A DNA stretch of 41,178 bases. Source: a virus. Numbering within the stretch: the first letter of the stretch is position 1; each line of letters starts with the position of its first letter. The position numbers and the translations under genes are program-made. This document shows positions 1,269 through 41,178 of the stretch, one piece after another. The notes beneath the pieces were generated by a model. The model was not told where the DNA came from. It did no database searches and worked only from the letters and a program-made list of their open reading frames with translations. Where the stretch lies: the IMG/VR virus record IMGVR_UViG_3300045431_000828, positions 1 through 41,178 of that record; one strand, written 5' to 3'.

Positions 1269-1984
1269 GCCGCGACGCTCCAGACGCCGCCGCCGTGCCG
1301 CTCGAACGGACCCTGCTGCAGCGTGCGGCGGATGGTGGCCTGATAGGTCGCGTTGCCCCTGGCCTTCGGATGTCGGGCGAAGGCGCGATAGAGGGCGTCC
1401 AGCCGGACCGGGCCGCCCTGGCGGTCCAGCCACGCGCGGACCAGGTCGCGCCACGTCTGCTCGAGCTCGACGCCCGCGATGAAACGGGGCACGGCGAGGG
1501 GGACGAACTGGCCGGCGAGTCCGCAAAAGGCGAGGCGCTCGGCCTCGTCGGCGCCGTAGGCGCACAGGACCGAGGGCGCGCCGCTGTTGGCGTGGCCGAC
1601 CGTCCCGTCGGGGGCGAGGAAGCGCAGCCGGCCACGCAGGAACAGCAGGCCCGCCGCCCGCTCCCACACGCAACCGAAGAACTCGCGCGTCTCGGTCCGG
1701 GCGAAGATCAGGGCGACGCCCTGGTCGTGGTCGGCCATGCGCGCCATGAACCGGCTGAAGGCCGGGCGGCTGTAGGGCGGGTTCAGCCACACGCGGCCGA
1801 ACCACGGCTGGGCCAGACCGTCGTCGGCCTCGGTGTAGCGCGCCCGCGCCGTCGGCCACGGCTGGACCGGCGGCGTCGCCGGGTCGAGGTCGAAGCTGTC
1901 CGGCCCGCCCAGGGCGTCGATGACTGACGGCGGCGTCAGCCACACGTCGCTGGTGTTCCAGCCGTTGTGGTGGGGTTGGGACAT
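1265..1984 (-). CDS. Phage DNA N-6-adenine methyltransferase (Dam-like)
   Basis: A 239-residue protein of the phage DNA N-6-adenine-methyltransferase family (PF05869 type), which transfers a methyl group from S-adenosylmethionine to adenine. The catalytic NPPYS motif is at residues 68-72. The typical N-terminal block is present: TSDVWLTPPSVIDAL at 11-25, then FDLDPA at 31-36. A C-terminal basic segment (about 190-239) looks like a small wHTH-type tail. The start at 1984 overlaps the upstream stop by one base (TGATG) and the gene overlaps the next start. It is the first of three methyltransferases in this genome. The target sequence cannot be read from the protein. Confidence 0.88.
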   Translation of the reverse strand: MSQPHHNGWNTSDVWLTPPSVIDALGGPDSFDLDPATPPVQPWPTARARYTEADDGLAQPWFGRVWLNPPYSRPAFSRFMARMADHDQGVALIFARTETREFFGCVWERAAGLLFLRGRLRFLAPDGTVGHANSGAPSVLCAYGADEAERLAFCGLAGQFVPLAVPRFIAGVELEQTWRDLVRAWLDRQGGPVRLDALYRAFARHPKARGNATYQATIRRTLQQGPFERHGGGVWSVAA

Positions 1985-3054
1985 CAGGCCGCAACCCGCC
2001 GGCTTGCCGCGTCGTCCGAGGGTCTGTTTACGCCCCGGTAGAGCGGGGCGGCACCTGCAGCGTCGAACGCGCCTTGGTCGCGGCGGTCGAAGAGCGCCAG
2101 CCATTTGCCTAAATCGGCGCGTTCGCCGACCGGCGCTGTTGCCTGGTCGGCCTGGAAACGGACGAGCGCGGCCGGAGCCATAGCGATGATGGCGTCGATC
2201 TCGGCGGCCGGTAGAAGGCCCTGCTGGCGGATATAGTCGGTGATCCGGCCGGGCCTCTTCTCGGCACCCCGTGTGCCCTTCACGCCGTTGCGCCACAGGC
2301 CCTCGATCTGCCGAAGGCGTGGGGCTGCGCGAGCCTCCATCAGGACGATCCGACGCAGTTGCTCCGGCGGAAGGGTGTGGACCTCCCAAGGCTTCATCGC
2401 GCCGCACATAGAGCACGCGCTCTTCGGCGGAACCGGAAGGCCCGCAGCCCGGATGCGGGCCTCACAGTCCTCTCGGCACCATCCCAGTTCGCGAAGCGGG
2501 TAGCCATAGACGAACCGGTCATCGACGTGGCCTTCGCGGTGAGCGTACCGCTTCGCATCGGCGGGTGAGCAATCGTAGCCGATAAGCTTGATGACCTTGG
2601 ACCCGGCGCTCCATGCGAGCCGGGCCGGAGCCCACTGTTCTGTCCAGCGGTTCTGAGGCTCGATCTTCCACTTCTGAGAGCAGCTCGAAAAGCCGAACGA
2701 GATCGACGGCAGGGTGCCGTTCGTAAAGCAGTTCTCGTCGAGCGACCGGTAGGGCGGGAAGTTCTTGTAGTTCTTGGGCTGATAGCGGACCACGATCAGG
2801 GTCACGCCGCGGGCCGCCAGCCATTCTCGGAAGAGCTCGAGGTAGGCATAGGTGGCGGGCTTCTCGCTGCCCGTGTCAGCGAACAGGACGATGTCGATGC
2901 GGACCCCGCTCTCGACCAGTTCGATGAGCATGGCGGTCGAGTCGACGCCTGCGCCATAGGCGACCATCACCGGCACGTTCGAGGCGGGCAAACCCGGTTC
3001 GTGGTCGAGGGCCTCGACCCGCAGCCGGGCCATGAACTGTTCGAGATCGGCCAC
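1984..3054 (-). CDS. Phosphoadenosine phosphosulfate reductase-like PP-loop protein
   Basis: A 356-residue protein of the PAPS-reductase / adenine nucleotide alpha-hydrolase superfamily. The PP-loop is YGAGVDSTAML at about 33-43, where Gly-Val replaces the usual Gly-Gly-Lys. A Cys near SSCSQKWKIEP (about 120-130) and a CSMCG pair near 210 could bind metal or iron-sulfur. Phage members of this family are not proven sulfate-assimilation enzymes; relatives include DndC (DNA phosphorothioation) and IbrA, which is paired with the ParB-like IbrB. Here a ParB-like gene lies one gene upstream, so an IbrAB-like pair is possible but unproven. The start is GTG at 3054; an ATG at 3033 is an alternative. 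A full dispersed palindrome lies at 2986-3004. Confidence 0.85.
   Translation of the reverse strand: MADLEQFMARLRVEALDHEPGLPASNVPVMVAYGAGVDSTAMLIELVESGVRIDIVLFADTGSEKPATYAYLELFREWLAARGVTLIVVRYQPKNYKNFPPYRSLDENCFTNGTLPSISFGFSSCSQKWKIEPQNRWTEQWAPARLAWSAGSKVIKLIGYDCSPADAKRYAHREGHVDDRFVYGYPLRELGWCREDCEARIRAAGLPVPPKSACSMCGAMKPWEVHTLPPEQLRRIVLMEARAAPRLRQIEGLWRNGVKGTRGAEKRPGRITDYIRQQGLLPAAEIDAIIAMAPAALVRFQADQATAPVGERADLGKWLALFDRRDQGAFDAAGAAPLYRGVNRPSDDAASRRVAA
2986..3004. repeat. Dispersed 19-bp palindrome, copy 1
   Basis: GGGCAAACCCGGTTCGTGG, plus orientation, about 50 bases inside the PP-loop gene (encoded as EPGLP on the minus strand). It matches the consensus except at the final two positions. 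Confidence 0.85.
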
Positions 3055-3056
3055 GA

Positions 3057-3485
3057 CTACGCGGCCTCGCGGTGATCGGCGGCGTGCTGCTCGGCCTGGT
3101 GGCGAGCGCGGCGCAGAGCCGGTTCGAGGGTATCGCGGCCCTTGCCGCCCAGCCAGGCGAAGCCGAGGCAGGCTTCGGGCTCGTTCGCCATGTCCAGGAG
3201 CATGACCTTCACGCCGCTGTGCATCCGGCCGGCGTACTCGATGTCCTCGACCTCGATCAGCTGGAGGTTCTGGCCGTTGCGCCCGCGCTCGATATGGCGC
3301 GCGAGGGCCGCGAGGTCGGGGCAGACGATGGGGCGGGTGACCGCGTCGATGCGCGGGAGGAAGGCATAGTTCGGCTTGTCGGCCATCATCAGGCTCCGGG
3401 CGACGGGGTGAATGGGGGTCGGGGGCGTCGGGTCGAACCCGGCGGCGGCGAGGGCGGGGCCTGCCTCGAACCAGGGCGGGCGCAT
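3057..3485 (-). CDS. Hypothetical protein between ParB-like and PP-loop genes
   Basis: A 142-residue protein I do not recognise. The conserved-looking part starts near MADKPNYAFLPRIDAVTRP (residue 34 on) and contains an alternating hydrophobic stretch (LQLIEVEDIEY, VKVMLLDMANEPEACLGFAWLGGKG) that suggests a small alpha/beta fold. It ends in a His/Ala-rich tail. The ATG at 3485 overlaps the ParB-like stop (TGATG), which supports the long form; the ATG at 3386 would give 109 residues. It sits between the ParB-like and the PP-loop genes in one transcription unit, so it may work with either. Confidence 0.65.
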   Translation of the reverse strand: MRPPWFEAGPALAAAGFDPTPPTPIHPVARSLMMADKPNYAFLPRIDAVTRPIVCPDLAALARHIERGRNGQNLQLIEVEDIEYAGRMHSGVKVMLLDMANEPEACLGFAWLGGKGRDTLEPALRRARHQAEQHAADHREAA

Positions 3486-5434
3486 CAGTCCTGGCCCTCG
3501 TGATCGGCGGCGGCGTAAGCCTGCTCGGCTTCCTCGCCCTCTTCCGCTTCCTGCGCCTCGGCGGTCATCGCCTCGACGGCGAGGTGTTCGGCGCCGACGG
3601 CGGTCCAGTCCCAGCCGTCCCCGCCGAAGGCGACGCCATTGTCGGACAGGAACTCGGCGAGGAACCGGGCGGCGGCGTCGACGAAGGTCTCGGCGCCGGG
3701 GGTCTGGTAGCTGTGGACGGTCAGGGCATCGGCCATCCGGCGAACGAAGGTGTCTTCGTCCAGCACGGGGTTCGGGTCCGGCTCGTCCTCGGGCGTCTCG
3801 AACCCACCGGCCGCGTTGATCGCGAGGATGACCAGACGCATCCGGGCTTCGGCCCAGTCGCTGCGGCCGGAGATGATCACCTCGCCATCGGCCGCAACGA
3901 TGTCGCCGTTATGCAGGCGCCGCCACGGCAGCTTCGCATCCGCCGCCGCCGCCAGTTCGGCGACGACCGGGGCGGGCGGGGGCGTGGTCCGGTGAACGGC
4001 GAACAGTTCGCGGGTGCGGGCGGCGGCGTCGCGGGCGCGTTGCTGTTCCGCCGCCCTCTCGGCCTCCGCGGCTTCACGCTCGGCCACACGGCGGGCCTCA
4101 TCCTCGGCCTGCCGTTCGCGCCTCTCGGTGTCGGCCTGAACGATGGCGGCGCCGTCCTCGGTCAGTTCGAACGGGCCGTTCAGCCACGCGGTCACATAGT
4201 CGCTGCGGTCGGGGTGCCCGGCCTCGGCCTGCGCCGCGCGCAGCGCCGCGTCGCGCTCGTGCTCGTTCGAGGACCAGAACGGCGCGGAGAGGTCGGCGGG
4301 AATGCTGGAGGTCCGCTTGACGACGTAGTGGCCGAGGGTGTTGCGGTCGCCGTGCTCTACCGGGCCGCCGAACACGACCCAGCCCATGCCCGCGAGGGCC
4401 TGGCCGATCTTGGAGTCCTTCGCGTCGGCCTGAACGGCGATGTCGGCGTAGCTGTAATGCGCCCGTGCGGCGACGGCGTGCATGACCTCGACGGCGGCGA
4501 GGCGTTCCTCGGGCGGGATGGCCTGGAGTTCCTCACGGACCGCCTCGGCCTTGGTGGCTTCCGCCACCCTCTTGCGGGCCTCGCTGACCGACAGGCGGCG
4601 GGGGTCGTCCTTGGGCAGGGTCAGGCGAACCTGGTCCGCTTCGTCCAGCCTCATGAAGCTGCGGTGCTGCTGGACGTGTTCGATGGTGACGCCGACCCGG
4701 TCGGCGATCTCGCGATTGATGCGGCCTTCTTCGACACCCATGGCGGCAAAGGTGTTCGCCAGACCCTCGAAGGCGCGGGCCTTTTCCAGCGGGTTGAGGT
4801 TGCGGCGCTGGAGGTTTTCCGAGAGGGCGGCGAGGCGCTGGCCCATCTCATCGACATCAATGACACGGCACGGCAGGGGACGGTCGGCGGGCCAATCGTC
4901 GTCAAAAAGCGCCAGACCGATCGCGCGCCAGCGACGCTCGCCACCGATCAAGGTCCAAGGCTGGCCGCCGTCTTCGACAACCCCGGCGGGGCTGGGGCGC
5001 ACGACGAGGTTCTGCAGCAGCCCGACCTGGATGATGTCTTGCCGCAAGGCGTCGAGGTCGTCCTTGGCCTCGTCGCTGTCCCAGTCGGTTCGGGCGTTGG
5101 CGGGGTCAGGGCGGATGTCGCTGTGCAGGATCAGGCGAATATCCCCGACCTGCTGCGGGAAGCGGACGCGCTCGGGCGAACCCGGTTTGTCCTCGCCGCT
5201 TTCGGCGCGGTCGATGGCGTCCAGCTGCAGGTCGCCGATGTCCGACAGGGCGATGTCGTCGCCATCGGCCAGCAGGTCCGCGTTCCGCAGGATGGTCAGG
5301 TCGCGGGCGATGTTCTTGGGGCTGCGACCGGCGACCTTCGCCAGTTCGGTCTGGTTGGACCAGCCGCCGGCGCGGATGGCGCGCAACAGGGCGACCGACG
5401 ACACGGCGACGGGGTTCAAATGGATGGCGGTCAT
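3485..5434 (-). CDS. Large ParB/Spo0J-family DNA-binding protein, no ParA partner
   Basis: A 649-residue protein. Residues 12-58 resemble a winged helix (SNQTELAKVAGRSPKNIARD). Residues 95-215 form the ParB N-terminal domain, with the box II motif GERRWRA at 165-171 (the CTP-binding region of ParB) and ENLQRRNLNPLEKA at 206-219. Residues 238-262 carry the ParB helix-turn-helix. Past residue 300 lie a unique region and a Glu/Arg/Ala-rich coiled coil around 450-505. ParB proteins bind palindromic parS sites and slide as CTP clamps. No ParA ATPase is in the window, so plasmid-like partition is not supported. KorB- or IbrB-like gene control is an alternative, and the dispersed 19-bp palindromes are candidate sites. 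I chose the ATG at 5434; the frame extends upstream over the 46-residue gene. One palindrome copy lies inside at 5174-5192. Confidence 0.85.
   Translation of the reverse strand: MTAIHLNPVAVSSVALLRAIRAGGWSNQTELAKVAGRSPKNIARDLTILRNADLLADGDDIALSDIGDLQLDAIDRAESGEDKPGSPERVRFPQQVGDIRLILHSDIRPDPANARTDWDSDEAKDDLDALRQDIIQVGLLQNLVVRPSPAGVVEDGGQPWTLIGGERRWRAIGLALFDDDWPADRPLPCRVIDVDEMGQRLAALSENLQRRNLNPLEKARAFEGLANTFAAMGVEEGRINREIADRVGVTIEHVQQHRSFMRLDEADQVRLTLPKDDPRRLSVSEARKRVAEATKAEAVREELQAIPPEERLAAVEVMHAVAARAHYSYADIAVQADAKDSKIGQALAGMGWVVFGGPVEHGDRNTLGHYVVKRTSSIPADLSAPFWSSNEHERDAALRAAQAEAGHPDRSDYVTAWLNGPFELTEDGAAIVQADTERRERQAEDEARRVAEREAAEAERAAEQQRARDAAARTRELFAVHRTTPPPAPVVAELAAAADAKLPWRRLHNGDIVAADGEVIISGRSDWAEARMRLVILAINAAGGFETPEDEPDPNPVLDEDTFVRRMADALTVHSYQTPGAETFVDAAARFLAEFLSDNGVAFGGDGWDWTAVGAEHLAVEAMTAEAQEAEEGEEAEQAYAAADHEGQD
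5174..5192. repeat. Dispersed 19-bp palindrome, copy 2
   Basis: GGGCGAACCCGGTTTGTCC, minus orientation, inside the ParB-like gene, where it encodes KPGSP. It is only about 500 bases from copy 3, the closest pair in the window. Confidence 0.85.
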
Positions 5435-5445
5435 CGGCGATCCGA

Positions 5446-5586
5446 TCAGCTGAGGGCCGACGCCGCGAACGCGACGGCGAGCATGGCGAGGATGAGGAGG
5501 GTGCTGGCGCGGCCGGTGCGGCGCGGACGCTGCCGCAGCCATTCGACCAAGGGGCGGAAGCCCGCCGGGGAGAGGGCGCTGCGCAT
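5446..5586 (-). CDS. Small single-span membrane protein, 46 residues
   Basis: A small frame, MRSALSPAGFRPLVEWLRQR then PRRTGRA, followed by a hydrophobic stretch (STLLILAMLAVAFAASALS) reaching the C-terminus. This fits a tail-anchored or signal-anchor peptide with a basic cytoplasmic N-terminus. Its ATG (5586) overlaps the stop of the preceding small gene as TGATG, and its stop is 11 bases before the ParB-like start, which supports translation in the same operon. No function is recognised. The frame is short, so it could still be a leader or chance frame. Confidence 0.5.
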   Translation of the reverse strand: MRSALSPAGFRPLVEWLRQRPRRTGRASTLLILAMLAVAFAASALS

Positions 5587-11184: not shown

Positions 11185-12143
11185 CCATGGCCGTCGATCT
11201 CCGACATGGCGACTGCCGCGAGGTCGTGCGGACGCTGGCCGACGCCAGCATCGACGGGGTGGCCTGTGACCCGCCCTATGCGCTTGTCAGCATCACGTCG
11301 CGGTTCGGCGCCGCCGATGCCGCACCGGCGAAGGCCGGCGCGAGCGGCGTCTATGCGCGCGCCTCGTCCGGCTTCATGGGCCAGACCTGGGACACCGGGG
11401 ACACAGCGTTCGACCCCGACTTCTGGCGCGAGGTGTTCCGGGTGCTGAAGCCCGGCGCGCACGTCGTCGCGTTCGGCGGGACGCGGACCTATCACCGTCT
11501 CGTCTGCGCGATCGAGGATGCCGGGTTCGAGATCAGGGACCAGCTGGCGTGGATATTCGGGAGCGGCTTCCCGAAGTCGCACGACCAGGGCCTCGGATGG
11601 GGCACGGCGCTCAAGCCGGGGTTCGAGCCCATCGTTCTCGCGCGCAAGCCGCTGTCAGAGGGCAGCATCGACGCGAACATGGCGAGGTGGGGTGTCGGCG
11701 CCCTGAACATCGACGGCTGCAGGGTGGGTGAGCGGTGGCCGGCGAACGTGATGCACGACGGCTCGGCCGAGGTGATCGCAGCGTTCCCGCAGACGAAGAG
11801 CGGCCGAGGCTATGCCCCGTACGCCTTGGGCCGCGAAAGCCGACCGGTCGGAACGGTGATGACCAGCTATGGCGATGCGGGCTCCGCGGCTCGCTTCTTC
11901 TACTCGCCCAAGGTCAGCCGGTCCGAACGCGGCGGGACCGGCCACCCGACCGTCAAGCCGGTCGCGGTCATGCGCTGGCTGTGCCGTCTGATTGCGCCGC
12001 CCGGCGCCGTCATCCTCGATCCGTTCGCTGGGTCCGGGACGACCGGCCTTGCCGCACGTGCGGAGGGCCAGCGGGCCATCCTGGTCGAACGGGAGGCCGC
12101 CTATTGCGGCGACATCCTCCAGCGACTGGCGAGGGCGGCATGA
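11181..12143 (+). CDS. Site-specific DNA methyltransferase (N4/N6, beta order)
   Basis: A 320-residue S-adenosylmethionine-dependent DNA methyltransferase. The catalytic motif DPPY (30-33) comes first and the cofactor-binding motif FAGSGTT (282-288) comes last, preceded by HPTVKP; this is the beta-class order seen in CcrM and similar enzymes. The middle holds the target-recognition region (about 110-250), in which I see no known specificity. Overlaps the AAA+ stop and the next methyltransferase start. No restriction endonuclease is adjacent, so it is an orphan enzyme, probably for host mimicry or protection. Confidence 0.9.
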   Translation: MTMAVDLRHGDCREVVRTLADASIDGVACDPPYALVSITSRFGAADAAPAKAGASGVYARASSGFMGQTWDTGDTAFDPDFWREVFRVLKPGAHVVAFGGTRTYHRLVCAIEDAGFEIRDQLAWIFGSGFPKSHDQGLGWGTALKPGFEPIVLARKPLSEGSIDANMARWGVGALNIDGCRVGERWPANVMHDGSAEVIAAFPQTKSGRGYAPYALGRESRPVGTVMTSYGDAGSAARFFYSPKVSRSERGGTGHPTVKPVAVMRWLCRLIAPPGAVILDPFAGSGTTGLAARAEGQRAILVEREAAYCGDILQRLARAA

Positions 12144-12952
12144 GTGCGCCTGTGCGTCCCCTCCTGAGATGGCATGGCGGCAAATGGCTTCTCGCGCCCT
12201 GGATCGTCGAAAACCTTCCGCCGCACCGGACCTATGTCGAGCCGTTCGGCGGCGCGGCGAGCGTGCTGCTGCGAAAGCGGCGCTCCTATGCGGAGGTCTA
12301 TAACGATCTCGACGCGGATGTCGTGAACCTGTTCCGCGTGCTGCGCGACCCGTCATTGGCCGAAGATCTGGTCGAGAAAATCCGCCTGACGCCCTTCGCG
12401 CGCGAGGAGTTCCTCGACGCCTATGACGCCGGCGCCGTGGGGGTTGAGGCCGCCCGAAGGCTGATCGTGCGCTCGTTCATGGGGTTCGGCTCGAACGGTG
12501 TGCATCGGCGCACGGGATTCCGGTCCAACAGCAGCCGGTCGGGCACGACGCCAGCGCGGGACTGGCTGAACTACCCGGAGGCGTTGGCCGCGGTCGTGGA
12601 TCGGCTGCGTGGGGTGGTGGTCGAGAACCGCGATGCCTGTTCGGTTATGGCGACGCACGACGGCGACGAAACCCTGCACTACGTCGATCCGCCGTATCTG
12701 CCAGAAACGCGCGACAGCGGGGCGGACTACGCCCACGAACTGACCTCGGAACAGCACCGGGAACTCCTCGTCTTCCTGCGCGGGCTCAAGGGCTCGGTCG
12801 TCCTCTCCGGCTATCCGCATCCGCTTTACGACGACGGCCTGCCGGGCTGGTCGCGCATCGAGCGCGAGGCGCTGGCGGACGGAGCTCGAGCTCGAACCGA
12901 GGTGCTTTGGCTGAACCCGCGCGCGACGCGGTCGGAGGGGCTGTTTCAATGA
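12140..12952 (+). CDS. D12-class (DpnM/T4 Dam-like) DNA adenine methylase
   Basis: A 270-residue DNA adenine methylase of the D12 class. The typical N-terminal motif is RWHGGK (10-15), followed by VEPFGGAASVLL (33-44) and NDLD (55-58). The catalytic DPPY is at 183-186. This class usually methylates GATC-type adenines, but the target here is not readable from sequence. It is directly coupled to the beta-class methyltransferase (4-base overlap), so the two are made together early in infection. Confidence 0.92.
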   Translation: MSAPVRPLLRWHGGKWLLAPWIVENLPPHRTYVEPFGGAASVLLRKRRSYAEVYNDLDADVVNLFRVLRDPSLAEDLVEKIRLTPFAREEFLDAYDAGAVGVEAARRLIVRSFMGFGSNGVHRRTGFRSNSSRSGTTPARDWLNYPEALAAVVDRLRGVVVENRDACSVMATHDGDETLHYVDPPYLPETRDSGADYAHELTSEQHRELLVFLRGLKGSVVLSGYPHPLYDDGLPGWSRIEREALADGARARTEVLWLNPRATRSEGLFQ

Positions 12953-37743: not shown

Positions 37744-38511
37744 ATGGCCGACACCTCTATCGAATGGACGGACTCGACCTGGAACCCGGTCGCTGGCTGC
37801 ACCATCATCACGCCCGGCTGCACGAACTGCTACGCGATGCGGATGGCGGCGCGGCTCGACGCCATGGGGGTCGAGAAGTACGCCGGCCTGACCCGCAAGA
37901 GCGGCGGTCGATATGTCTGGACGGGGCGCATCTCCCTCGACGAGGCGGCGCTGACTGTGCCGGCGCGCTGGCGCAAGCCGCGCATGATCTTCGTGAACTC
38001 GATGTCGGACCTGTTCCATCCCGACGTTCCGCTCGACTTCATCGCGAGGGTTTGGGCGGCGATGGCGGCGGCGCCGCATCACGTCTTTCAGGTTCTAACC
38101 AAGCGTCCGGAGAGGATGCGCGAGGTTCTGAGCGAGATCGCGCCGCGTCCTCTCTCGCATGTTTGGCTAGGCACGACGGTCGAGGACAACGCCGTCGTCG
38201 GCAGGCTGGACGAACTGCGCGCCACGCCGGCCGGGGTGCGGTTCGTTTCGTTTGAGCCGCTTATCGGATCAGTGAGCCAAGCGGACCTCACGGGCATCCA
38301 TTGGGCCATCGTGGGCGGCGAGTCCGGCCCCCGTGCCCGGCCCATGGACGAGGTGTGGATCGACGAAATCAGGGCCGCGTGTATCGCCGCCGATACGGCG
38401 TTCTTCTTCAAGCAGTGGGGCGGGCGCAACAAGAAGGCAGCGGGCCGGACCTACCAAGGCCGGGTCTGGGATGAGATGCCCTTGTTGATCACGTCGCCCG
38501 CCAGCCTCTGA
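37744..38511 (+). CDS. DUF5131 (phage Gp37/Gp68-type) three-Cys-motif protein
   Basis: A 255-residue protein of the phage Gp37/Gp68 (DUF5131) family. The three-Cys motif is AGCTIITPGCTNCYA, with Cys19, Cys26 and Cys29, similar to radical-SAM cysteine patterns. Other family segments are MIFVNSMSDLFHPDVPLDFI, FQVLTKRPERM, WLGTTVEDN, RFVSFEPL and WAIVGGESGPRARPM, and FFFKQWGG near the end. The biochemical activity is unknown. GGGGAG precedes the ATG. It is convergent with TcmP and their ends overlap by 61 bases. The pair is known to co-occur, hence the partner name. Confidence 0.92.
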   Translation: MADTSIEWTDSTWNPVAGCTIITPGCTNCYAMRMAARLDAMGVEKYAGLTRKSGGRYVWTGRISLDEAALTVPARWRKPRMIFVNSMSDLFHPDVPLDFIARVWAAMAAAPHHVFQVLTKRPERMREVLSEIAPRPLSHVWLGTTVEDNAVVGRLDELRATPAGVRFVSFEPLIGSVSQADLTGIHWAIVGGESGPRARPMDEVWIDEIRAACIAADTAFFFKQWGGRNKKAAGRTYQGRVWDEMPLLITSPASL

Positions 38512-39404
38512 GCCAAGCCCATCGCAGGGCCGGAAGCGTTCGAGAGGGCGAAGAACAGAGAGAACTGGTGAACGCCCTTGCCGTCCATGTAGAGGCGCAG
38601 CGGCTTGGACACCCATGGGAACAGCGATCCGAGGCGTCTTTTGACCCATTCCTCGACGGCGGCCTCGTCGGCGGTGCGGCTCGAATCGCGGGCGGTTTCG
38701 CCTAGGTCGAGATCCTCGAACAGGCTGACCTGGTCCGGTCGCAGCTCGTACCATGCTGAGCGCCAGTCTTCGGTGCCGAACATCCGTGTAAGGCGCCGCT
38801 GCTTGTGTCCGTCGACGGCGGATAACGCCTTGGCTGCCTGACGCAGAATTCCGTTGATGTTGACGAGGTACCAGACATCAATCGAGTTGGTCCGGCGGAT
38901 GACTTCGAGTGTGGTCCAGTCAACGTTCAGACCGTAGGGGTCGAGGAACATGACGGCGCGTTTCCCCGCCCATCGCTCGCCGGCCAGGGCGCGCGGAATG
39001 ATGTCATTGCAGTCGCCCCGGACGACGTCGATGACGCGGTCGGGGTGTTCCGCCGCCAGCGCCTGCAGGGCGCGGACGTGGCCTGGCTTCTGGTCGATAA
39101 AGGTCAGGCGGTCGAAGCGGGGACGGGCGTCGAGAGCGATGCGGGCGGAGCCTCGGCGCTGCTCTCGGAACGCCTCCCGCTCCTCTTCCAAGATCGAGCC
39201 GCGGACTTCGGGATGTATGATTGTCCGGTGTCCGGCGCCCGCGAAGGCGTCGATATACCAAAGGTGATTGAACTTCGACCGCAGGGCCGTGGTGTAGGCG
39301 TTCAAGTACCGCTCGATCACCTCAAGCTTCAGGTCGGTCGAAGTGTTGCCGAAGACGTGGTCTGTCACGAAGTCGCCCGCGAGCGCCGACTCGGCGCGAT
39401 TCAA
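38451..39404 (-). CDS. tcmP: Three-Cys-motif partner protein TcmP
   Basis: A 317-residue protein of the TcmP family, which co-occurs with three-Cys-motif (DUF5131) proteins. Visible features are STDLKLEVIERYLNAYTTAL, then YIDAFAGAGHR, which resembles a methyltransferase-like motif I, and FLDPYGLNVDWTTLEVIRRT, similar to a DPY catalytic motif. A methyltransferase-like fold is therefore likely, but activity is unproven. The start is unclear: TTG at 39404, or a GTG near 39368. It is last of three minus-strand genes from a promoter near 40033-40201. Confidence 0.88.
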   Translation of the reverse strand: MNRAESALAGDFVTDHVFGNTSTDLKLEVIERYLNAYTTALRSKFNHLWYIDAFAGAGHRTIIHPEVRGSILEEEREAFREQRRGSARIALDARPRFDRLTFIDQKPGHVRALQALAAEHPDRVIDVVRGDCNDIIPRALAGERWAGKRAVMFLDPYGLNVDWTTLEVIRRTNSIDVWYLVNINGILRQAAKALSAVDGHKQRRLTRMFGTEDWRSAWYELRPDQVSLFEDLDLGETARDSSRTADEAAVEEWVKRRLGSLFPWVSKPLRLYMDGKGVHQFSLFFALSNASGPAMGLAQRLAGDVINKGISSQTRPW

Positions 39405-40032: not shown

Positions 40033-40201
40033 GATCATCTCCCTTCATTCCGTCTCTCGATCCGGGGCGGGATAGGCGCGCGGCAACGCGCCGACCTGCG
40101 GGCATCACCCCGCACGACTGGACCGAACGGCCATCCGGCCGGTCACCGCCCCGCTCTCGCGAGAGGGGTTTATTCCTACTCGTGCCAAGTGCTCCTCCGC
40201 A
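40033..40201. promoter_or_regulatory. Divergent control region of the TcmP operon and com-mom
   Basis: A 169-base gap with three hairpin-prone elements: TGCGGG-catcac-CCCGCA (40097-40114), CGGCC-atcc-GGCCG with outer arms (about 40127-40140), and the perfect CTCTCGCGAGAG (40154-40165). A short AT-richer patch, GGTTTATTCCTACT, follows at about 40167-40180 and is the best candidate for the com-mom promoter. No GATC or GANTC site lies near it. Confidence 0.45.
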
Positions 40202-40426
40202 ATGACTTGTTCCAGTTTTGTTCCGGTTCCTAATCGGACCGCCCGCGCCCTCCGCTGTCGGTCGTGCGCGAAGCTCCTGGCCCTCGCCAGCGAGACGTTC
40301 CGTGGCCCCCTCGACATCCGATGCGGGCGCTGTAAGACGGACAACAGGTTCACCGAGCGCCCGCGAGCGCCTTCCCATCCGGAGGGCGCATGTCAGACCG
40401 CAAAGCCTCGGCTCCCGCCTACCTGA
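40202..40426 (+). CDS. com: Com-like zinc-finger translational activator of mom
   Basis: A 74-residue protein. The finger is LRCRSCAKLLALASETFRGP, then DIRCGRCKTDNRF: Cys19, Cys22, Cys41 and Cys44 form a CxxC-CxxC zinc site, as in the Mu Com protein. Mu Com binds mom mRNA and opens a structure that hides the mom ribosome-binding site. Here the gene ends 37 bases inside mom, also as in Mu, and a matching hairpin lies before the mom ATG. The start at 40202 has no clear ribosome-binding site. The name com is used by analogy. Confidence 0.82.
   Translation: MTCSSFVPVPNRTARALRCRSCAKLLALASETFRGPLDIRCGRCKTDNRFTERPRAPSHPEGACQTAKPRLPPT
40367..40389 (+). promoter_or_regulatory. Translation-inhibitor hairpin over the mom ribosome-binding site
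   Basis: GCGCCTTCC (40367-40375) pairs with GGAGGGCGC (40381-40389): 9 pairs, one of them G-U, with a 5-base loop CATCC. The mom Shine-Dalgarno GGAGGG is the 3' arm, and the start codon (40390) follows directly. This is the arrangement that Com relieves in phage Mu. Confidence 0.8.
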
Positions 40427-41178
40427 TCGACCAAATGGCGCTGATCGGCGCCGCGCCCGTGTGCGGCTTCGGAACGCCCGCGTTCCAAGTCCGCGAGATC
40501 CATCGCGACCGGGCCAACGCCATCATTCGGCGCTGCCACTACAGCCACAAGATCGTCAATAACGCCTATGTCCACCTCGGCGTCTTCATCGACGGCGAGC
40601 TCTATGGCGTGCTGCAGTTCGGCTACGCCATGAACCCGGCCTCGGCCGGCGGCGTCGTGGAGGGGACCGGGAACGACGAGTACCTTGAACTCAACCGCAT
40701 GTGGCTGGACGACTTCGCGCCTCGCAACAGCGAGAGCCGGGCGATCAGCTACGCCATCCGCTACATCCGCCGGGCCTGGCCGAAGGTGCGCTGGATTCAG
40801 TCATTCGCGGACGAGCGGTGCGGGCTGAACGGGACCGTCTATCAGGCCGCCAACTTCGACTATGCCGGCGGGCACGTCTCGACCTTTTGGGAACTCGACG
40901 GCGAGATGTTCCACAATATCGCCGCCACCACGACCGGCGACAAAGGCGGAGCTCGATCGAGGTGGCTGCGCGAGAACCTGCACCGCGCGACGCGGCACGA
41001 CCTGCGCCAGTTCCGATACCTGTTCTTCATGGCTCCGCGGTTCCGGCGCGGCCTGAAGCTGACGCTTCAACCCTTTCCCAAGGCGACCCGTCCAGAAGAC
41101 GAGCCCGCGACCAGCGGGTGCGAGCCAGGTGTGAGTCTTGGGGGTCGCTCCAATACAACGACGGCCGGTGTCGGTTAG
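40390..41178 (+). CDS. mom: Mom-like DNA adenine modification protein
   Basis: A 262-residue protein of the Mom family, which in phage Mu converts adenine in DNA to a carbamoylmethyl/acetamido-type N6 derivative that blocks many restriction enzymes. The conserved core is visible: RCHYSHKIVNNAYVHLGVF (His50-Tyr51), GELYGVLQFGYAMNP, YLELNRMWLDDFAPRNSESR, the helix SRAISYAIRYIRRAWP, and WIQSFADERCGLNGTVYQAA. It is a GNAT-like fold in predictions for Mu Mom. The C-terminal 45 residues are a low-complexity tail. Translation is probably held back by the hairpin at 40367-40389 until Com is made. Expression late and after replication would be expected, since the modification is toxic to the host. Confidence 0.88.
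   Translation: MSDRKASAPAYLIDQMALIGAAPVCGFGTPAFQVREIHRDRANAIIRRCHYSHKIVNNAYVHLGVFIDGELYGVLQFGYAMNPASAGGVVEGTGNDEYLELNRMWLDDFAPRNSESRAISYAIRYIRRAWPKVRWIQSFADERCGLNGTVYQAANFDYAGGHVSTFWELDGEMFHNIAATTTGDKGGARSRWLRENLHRATRHDLRQFRYLFFMAPRFRRGLKLTLQPFPKATRPEDEPATSGCEPGVSLGGRSNTTTAGVG

Follow-up and report, generated by a model that had tools for sequence, protein, structure and literature searches.

In phage Mu, the com-mom promoter region is controlled by Dam and OxyR and activated by C, and the product of Mom is N6-carbamoylmethyl-adenine. A structured RNA, the D12-methyl motif, lies upstream of D12 methyltransferase genes. SELEX and SHAPE defined the target of Mu Com as a hairpin loop containing CC(N)2-3GAG, and Com works through binding of this hairpin motif (PMC6483171), while the general role of Com was described in a review as still to be explored (PMC6240691).

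The window, which is the whole stretch of DNA analysed here, is an IMG/VR virus record of 41,178 nt with com and mom at its right end. Both record ends coincide exactly with gene ends, so the window is probably a trimmed prophage. Its main genes include ParB-like and replication-initiation genes, head-tail connectors and the following:

1-1098: tyrosine integrase
16393: large terminase, HK97-type
18113: portal
20366: major capsid protein
25466: tape-measure protein

A preliminary description of this DNA had proposed a Mu-type module in a non-Mu siphophage, which is supported by the integrase, the HK97-type terminase, portal and capsid, and the tape-measure gene in the scanned ORFs. MuA and Mu transposition genes were not found among the main window ORFs scanned, a partial set, which held the integrase instead; the sole match to a transposition protein was weak and of a generic ATPase type. 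Gene content thus supports a temperate, integrase-carrying, siphophage-type prophage that appears non-Mu-like in the ORFs scanned. Just left of com-mom (37744-39404), a DUF5131 gene (PF07505, 320 bits) is convergent with a gene for the three-Cys-motif partner TcmP (TIGR04474, 182 bits), DUF5131 and TcmP being a mobile pair, and on the minus strand at 1984-5542 a PAPS-reductase-like gene stands beside a ParB-like gene.

The genes and RNA elements around the mom start are these:

40202-40426, + strand: com, ATG 40202 to TGA 40426, 74 aa, Com-like zinc ribbon
40357-40370, + strand: Com-box hairpin, stem GCGC/GCGC, loop CCGCGA, motif CC(N)3GAG
40367-40389, + strand: predicted translation-inhibiting stem of mom, 9 bp, with GGAGGG inside at 40381-40386
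40390-41178, + strand: mom, ATG 40390 to TAG 41178, 262 aa, Mom-family DNA-modifying enzyme

Coordinates (an overlap of exactly 37 nt), cysteines and the Mom profile agree with the earlier reading of a Com-like CxxC-CxxC protein overlapping a Mom-like gene by 37 nt. The Mom product matched PF25680 with 245.8 bits (E = 4 × 10−73, curated cut-off 27.1) and the solved Mu Mom structure 8bv8 with 223 bits (E = 3.9 × 10−65), showed 52% identity to Mu Mom across 79% of the query, and retained the blocks HYS, NRMW, NSES and FADERCG (DER motif). By these matches its assignment as a true Mom-family gene is secure, and its chemistry, adenine modification, would be that of Mu by analogy. Com kept both CxxC pairs (CRSC and CGRC; all four cysteines), could be aligned with Com of Mu, JD024 and PAN70, and matched PHROG families named translational regulator/gpCom (phrog_6417, E = 2.1 × 10−6; phrog_13819, E = 6 × 10−4), while its PF10122 score fell just under the cut-off (21.8 bits, E = 1.3 × 10−4, cut-off 22.9). 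It carries an N-terminal extension and has no clear Shine-Dalgarno (SD) sequence, and the similarities support its placement as a divergent Com member. Among 55 Mom proteins placed in a tree, those linked to Com formed one group (support 97/96), in which the window branched deepest, and close com-less Moms fell outside it. Within that group only an Aeromonas phage Mom (L057) is without Com; L209 carries Com, and its 'nocom' tag in the tree is a labelling miss. In L026, around 4959, a stop follows the expected ATG directly in the mom frame, which implies use of a different start or damage to the gene.

The stem at the mom start consists of GCGCCTTCC (40367-40375), the loop CATCC and GGAGGGCGC (40381-40389), with nine pairs, one of them G-U, and a 3' end flush with the mom ATG. 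Its description as a 9-bp stem hiding GGAGGG up to the ATG proved real: of 62 stems of like strength on the window + strand, no other abuts the start of a listed + strand gene, and pairing between the 3' arm of the Com box and the mom start region exceeded that in shuffles (6.97 vs. 1.63 pairs, P = 0.02). The local fold is mildly unusual at most (z = −1.76), which is unconvincing alone, and we therefore turned to conservation. The window Com box, GCGC-CCGCGA-GCGC, matches the Mu Com target AUGC-CUGCGA-GCAU. It had gone unmentioned in the preliminary description and reinforces the Mu-type hairpin logic proposed there, as a CC(N)2-3GAG hairpin adjoins a start-blocking stem (40357-40370 and 40367-40389). 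Positions 40367-40370 serve as the 3' arm of the Com box and also as the outer part of the 5' arm of the blocking stem; full formation of one fold excludes that of the other, and the folds compete.

Conservation of the Com box was assessed in 84 non-redundant Com loci, picked by resemblance to a chosen set with near-copies removed, and in a smaller set of 30 further loci found in genomes by Pfam profile; the first Com alignment was too diverse for scanning, and the Com scan was run with a closer subset. At least one Com-box hairpin of 4 bp occurred in 79 of the 84 loci and two occurred in 50. Dinucleotide shuffles averaged 2.1 loci with a hairpin (max 8), and shuffling of synonymous codons gave 7.7 (max 15). 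With the loop motif only required, and not pairing, stem positions 2 and 3 paired in 79/84 and 78/84 loci (shuffles ≤61 and ≤60, respectively). The profile-found loci had a box in 28 of 30 cases (0.46 expected, max 4). Relative to com, boxes fall in each of the three reading frames, and protein coding therefore does not explain them. A box was seen in every com-mom locus compared and in none of ~45 com-less mom loci fetched by similarity. Its end lay commonly ~15-22 nt upstream of the start codon of the downstream gene, as taken by longest ORF. The 3' arm of the box paired with the start region of the gene behind com above shuffled levels for Mom (5.4 vs. 1.6) and Dam (4.7 vs. 1.3), while such pairing was not above shuffles in the C5 and N4/N6 sets.

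The best explanation of the whole, to which we assign a probability of roughly three in four, is a late anti-restriction module with a leader and a Com-switched mom. Without Com, the stem at 40367-40389 would bury the mom ribosome-binding site and keep mom off. Com would bind the hairpin at 40357-40370, and the bound hairpin would take four of the nine pairs of the blocking stem, such that the weakened stem lets ribosomes start Mom, which would then modify phage DNA adenines and shield the DNA from host nucleases. Com binding in the window phage and the direction of control are here presumed to follow Mu. In the energy model, the switch to the Com hairpin cost 10.7 kcal/mol, binding energy excluded, and when this hairpin was enforced in the computed fold, five pairs of the blocking stem persisted and SD accessibility hardly increased; merely holding the hairpin would therefore not suffice, and Com must do something further or be helped by ribosomes translating com. 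Complete opening of the blocking stem, on this model, would need Com or a ribosome.

The weak gain in SD accessibility counts in favor of plain translational coupling, by which ribosomes on com pass through 40357-40426, open the stem and restart at mom while Com is no regulator. Such coupling is geometrically possible, as com is read through the entire stem and stops 37 nt beyond the mom start, yet it needs no Com box, whereas the box is kept across both sets of Com loci (79/84 and 28/30) in differing frames and is absent from com-less mom, and Mu Com acts by binding this motif. We consider coupling of this kind unlikely and a Com-switched mom the better account.

Genes behind com in the non-redundant set, assigned by Pfam on cluster representatives, were mainly D12 Dam (25), Mom (16), C5 methyltransferase (13) and N4/N6 methyltransferase (10), with a minority bacteriocin-like or unknown. 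This pattern fits earlier reports in which Com lay close to an N4/N6 methylase (PMC3091744) or preceded lectin-like bacteriocins (PMC6240691). Com looks like a portable switch, placed mostly before D12, C5 and N4/N6 DNA methyltransferases. In five loci (L185, L098, L167, L273 and L274), the gene behind com encodes a colicin M-like or lectin-like bacteriocin; these loci have Com boxes, and in most the start is farther downstream. About a dozen near-identical com-dam copies occur in the single genome of Methylophaga thiooxydans DMS010 (L187, L189-L198, L213), several of them near contig ends, reflecting either a multi-copy prophage or an assembly artefact.

Upstream of com, many relatives share a conserved, GC-rich segment with multiple hairpins, which in the window has the following parts:

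40056-40173, + strand: com leader RNA (model R1, 69.5 bits, E = 4.6 × 10−11, the window being among the 10 seed sequences)
40063-40070/40146-40153, + strand: leader helix P1
40075-40080/40087-40092, + strand: leader helix P2
40097-40102/40109-40114, + strand: leader helix P3
about 40116-40125/40136-40144, + strand: leader helix P4
40154-40158/40163-40167, + strand: leader helix P5
40150-40173, + strand: terminator-like 3' hairpin of the leader, CCC-G-CTCT-CGCG-AGAG-GGG-TTTATT

This segment modifies what had been said of upstream control. The earlier remark that the promoter has no GATC was imprecise, as GATC occurs at 40033 and 40059 and our search found no promoter; and where the Dam/OxyR control of Mu had been noted as having no counterpart, there is more than an absence, since the conserved leader RNA stands at that place. 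The prophage has its own Dam-like DNA methyltransferase at 11735-12952 (phrog_56; weak TIGR00571 match), extended at its N terminus, and a link to mom control is conceivable by analogy with Mu, in which mom transcription is under the control of host Dam.

The window leader folds with a z of −2.46. The first alignment of alphaproteobacterial leaders, which contained the window, had 93.7% of its pair cells paired and a covariation of 0.233 vs. 0.092, and the Pseudomonas/betaproteobacterial form gave 0.370 vs. 0.111. An enlarged set of 25 distinct sequences, with an alignment that was fitted to the model, showed covariation of 0.382 vs. 0.115 when shuffled (0/500), with both sides changed in 21 of 27 pairs and sliding controls ≤0.065. 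Judged by these alignments, the leader at 40056-40173 is a conserved, covarying multi-helix RNA. A terminator-like match lies at 40154-40167 (0.3 expected), and the 3' hairpin would compete with P1 for the C-rich strand. In the module that we favor, the mRNA would begin with the folded leader, followed by com and mom, and the leader would form an earlier layer, acting by attenuation or control of com translation via the competing folds P1 and P5; competition between P1 and the terminator-like hairpin is the probable mechanism. In Rfam 15 (cmscan), no leader from the window or relatives scored above the gathering score, and the best match of the window leader (E = 3.3) was at chance level. A NiCo riboswitch match in PAN70 (29 bits, below the cut-off of 37) lay on the minus strand, the wrong one, and was dismissed as a product of fold symmetry. 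Model R2 gave minus-strand matches, which were discounted because they mirror the long P2 helix.

In a search of 467 kb of phage sequence, mostly mom-bearing, matches to model R1 (E < 0.1) were confined to com-mom loci and to four phages that lack com (L017-L020), in which the leader lies directly before mom. Genome searches covered subsets of 318 alphaproteobacterial and 25 Pseudomonas-group genomes. The blind search of the former with R1 returned 16 places in 13 genomes, 11 of which had an intact DNA-modification gene behind the leader, either a D12 methyltransferase directly (8) or com plus a modification gene (N4/N6, mom or C5; 3), and the remainder looked broken or were unclear. Model R2 found six places in the Pseudomonas-group genomes, half of them (3) in front of D12 genes and the other half in front of com. 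Among the 98 Com loci searched, 62 had a leader upstream (E below 0.05, seed sequences counted in). The leader was always upstream of the gene and co-oriented with it, mostly ~5-60 nt from the start codon. Tandem leader copies occur in L222 (1688-1802 and 2357-2470), with a truncated com remnant behind the second. An initiation region like ATGGAGTCCAT was seen in L275-L288 and at the com starts of L141, L163 and L209, and is common to com genes and com-less D12 genes behind the leader; the start site behaves as if it were part of the leader element.

Within the open-licence literature covered, we consider it probable that the leader and its relatives constitute an undescribed cis-regulatory RNA class of proteobacterial phages and prophages that fronts DNA-modification genes. 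The proposed class would include mom and D12, C5 and N4/N6 methyltransferase genes, with or without com, and some Pseudomonas Com-linked bacteriocin or unknown genes. A DNA element, such as a cruciform or a recombination site moving modification cassettes, would likewise be expected to have covarying paired segments, and such a role would suit the mobility of the cassettes and their links to different enzymes. We regard this as improbable, given the invariable upstream position and orientation with the gene and the mostly short spacing to the start codon, together with conserved unpaired segments, some G-U pairs and the competing 3' hairpin, all of which argue for an RNA. Decay of com, mom or the prophage is least likely, being suggested by a divergent, N-terminally extended Com with a sub-threshold Pfam score and a record trimmed at gene ends, but opposed by intact com and mom frames, the retained four cysteines and conserved Mom residues, and two intact RNA folds.

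Com has been studied almost solely in Mu, and Com-box RNA, near-universal with Com, now points to its target genes, which mostly encode enzymes that modify DNA. The likely cost of modifying host DNA early makes it plausible that phages share a single RNA switch for delaying this step. If the proposed class holds, the leader and Com box would provide a two-layer, portable RNA control of the timing of phage DNA modification. The covarying leader is a concrete candidate RNA, and because it is linked to modification genes even without com, the signal that starts phage DNA modification becomes directly testable.

Compared to described systems, the leader resembles the D12-methyl motif as a structured RNA before D12 genes, while that of the window has no meaningful Rfam match. 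The Pseudomonas Com-linked bacteriocin genes (PMC6240691) share with the window a Com upstream of the controlled gene and, in several, a Com box, but encode lectin-like bacteriocins rather than DNA modification and start farther downstream. The Mu com-mom operon shares the Com zinc finger, the gene overlap, a Com hairpin with a 6-nt CYGCGA loop, a start-blocking stem and the Mom family. It differs in that its stem holds the GUG start, whereas that of the window buries the SD beside the ATG; its hairpins are adjacent, whereas those of the window overlap by 4 nt; the leader-model search found no leader RNA in Mu; and Mu is transposable, whereas the window phage is integrase-based. Pseudomonas phages JD024 and PAN70 have Com, Com box and Mom as the window does, and in PAN70 an integrase gene adjoins mom, but both have two tandem hairpins and a Pseudomonas-type leader (R2) in place of the single hairpin and alphaproteobacterial leader (R1) of the window. 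With these two phages already in public records, com-mom outside Mu is no novelty and we make no such claim. The com-mom pair itself is already known in kind, and the new parts are the overlapping switch, the family-wide Com box and the leader, which may represent a new RNA class.
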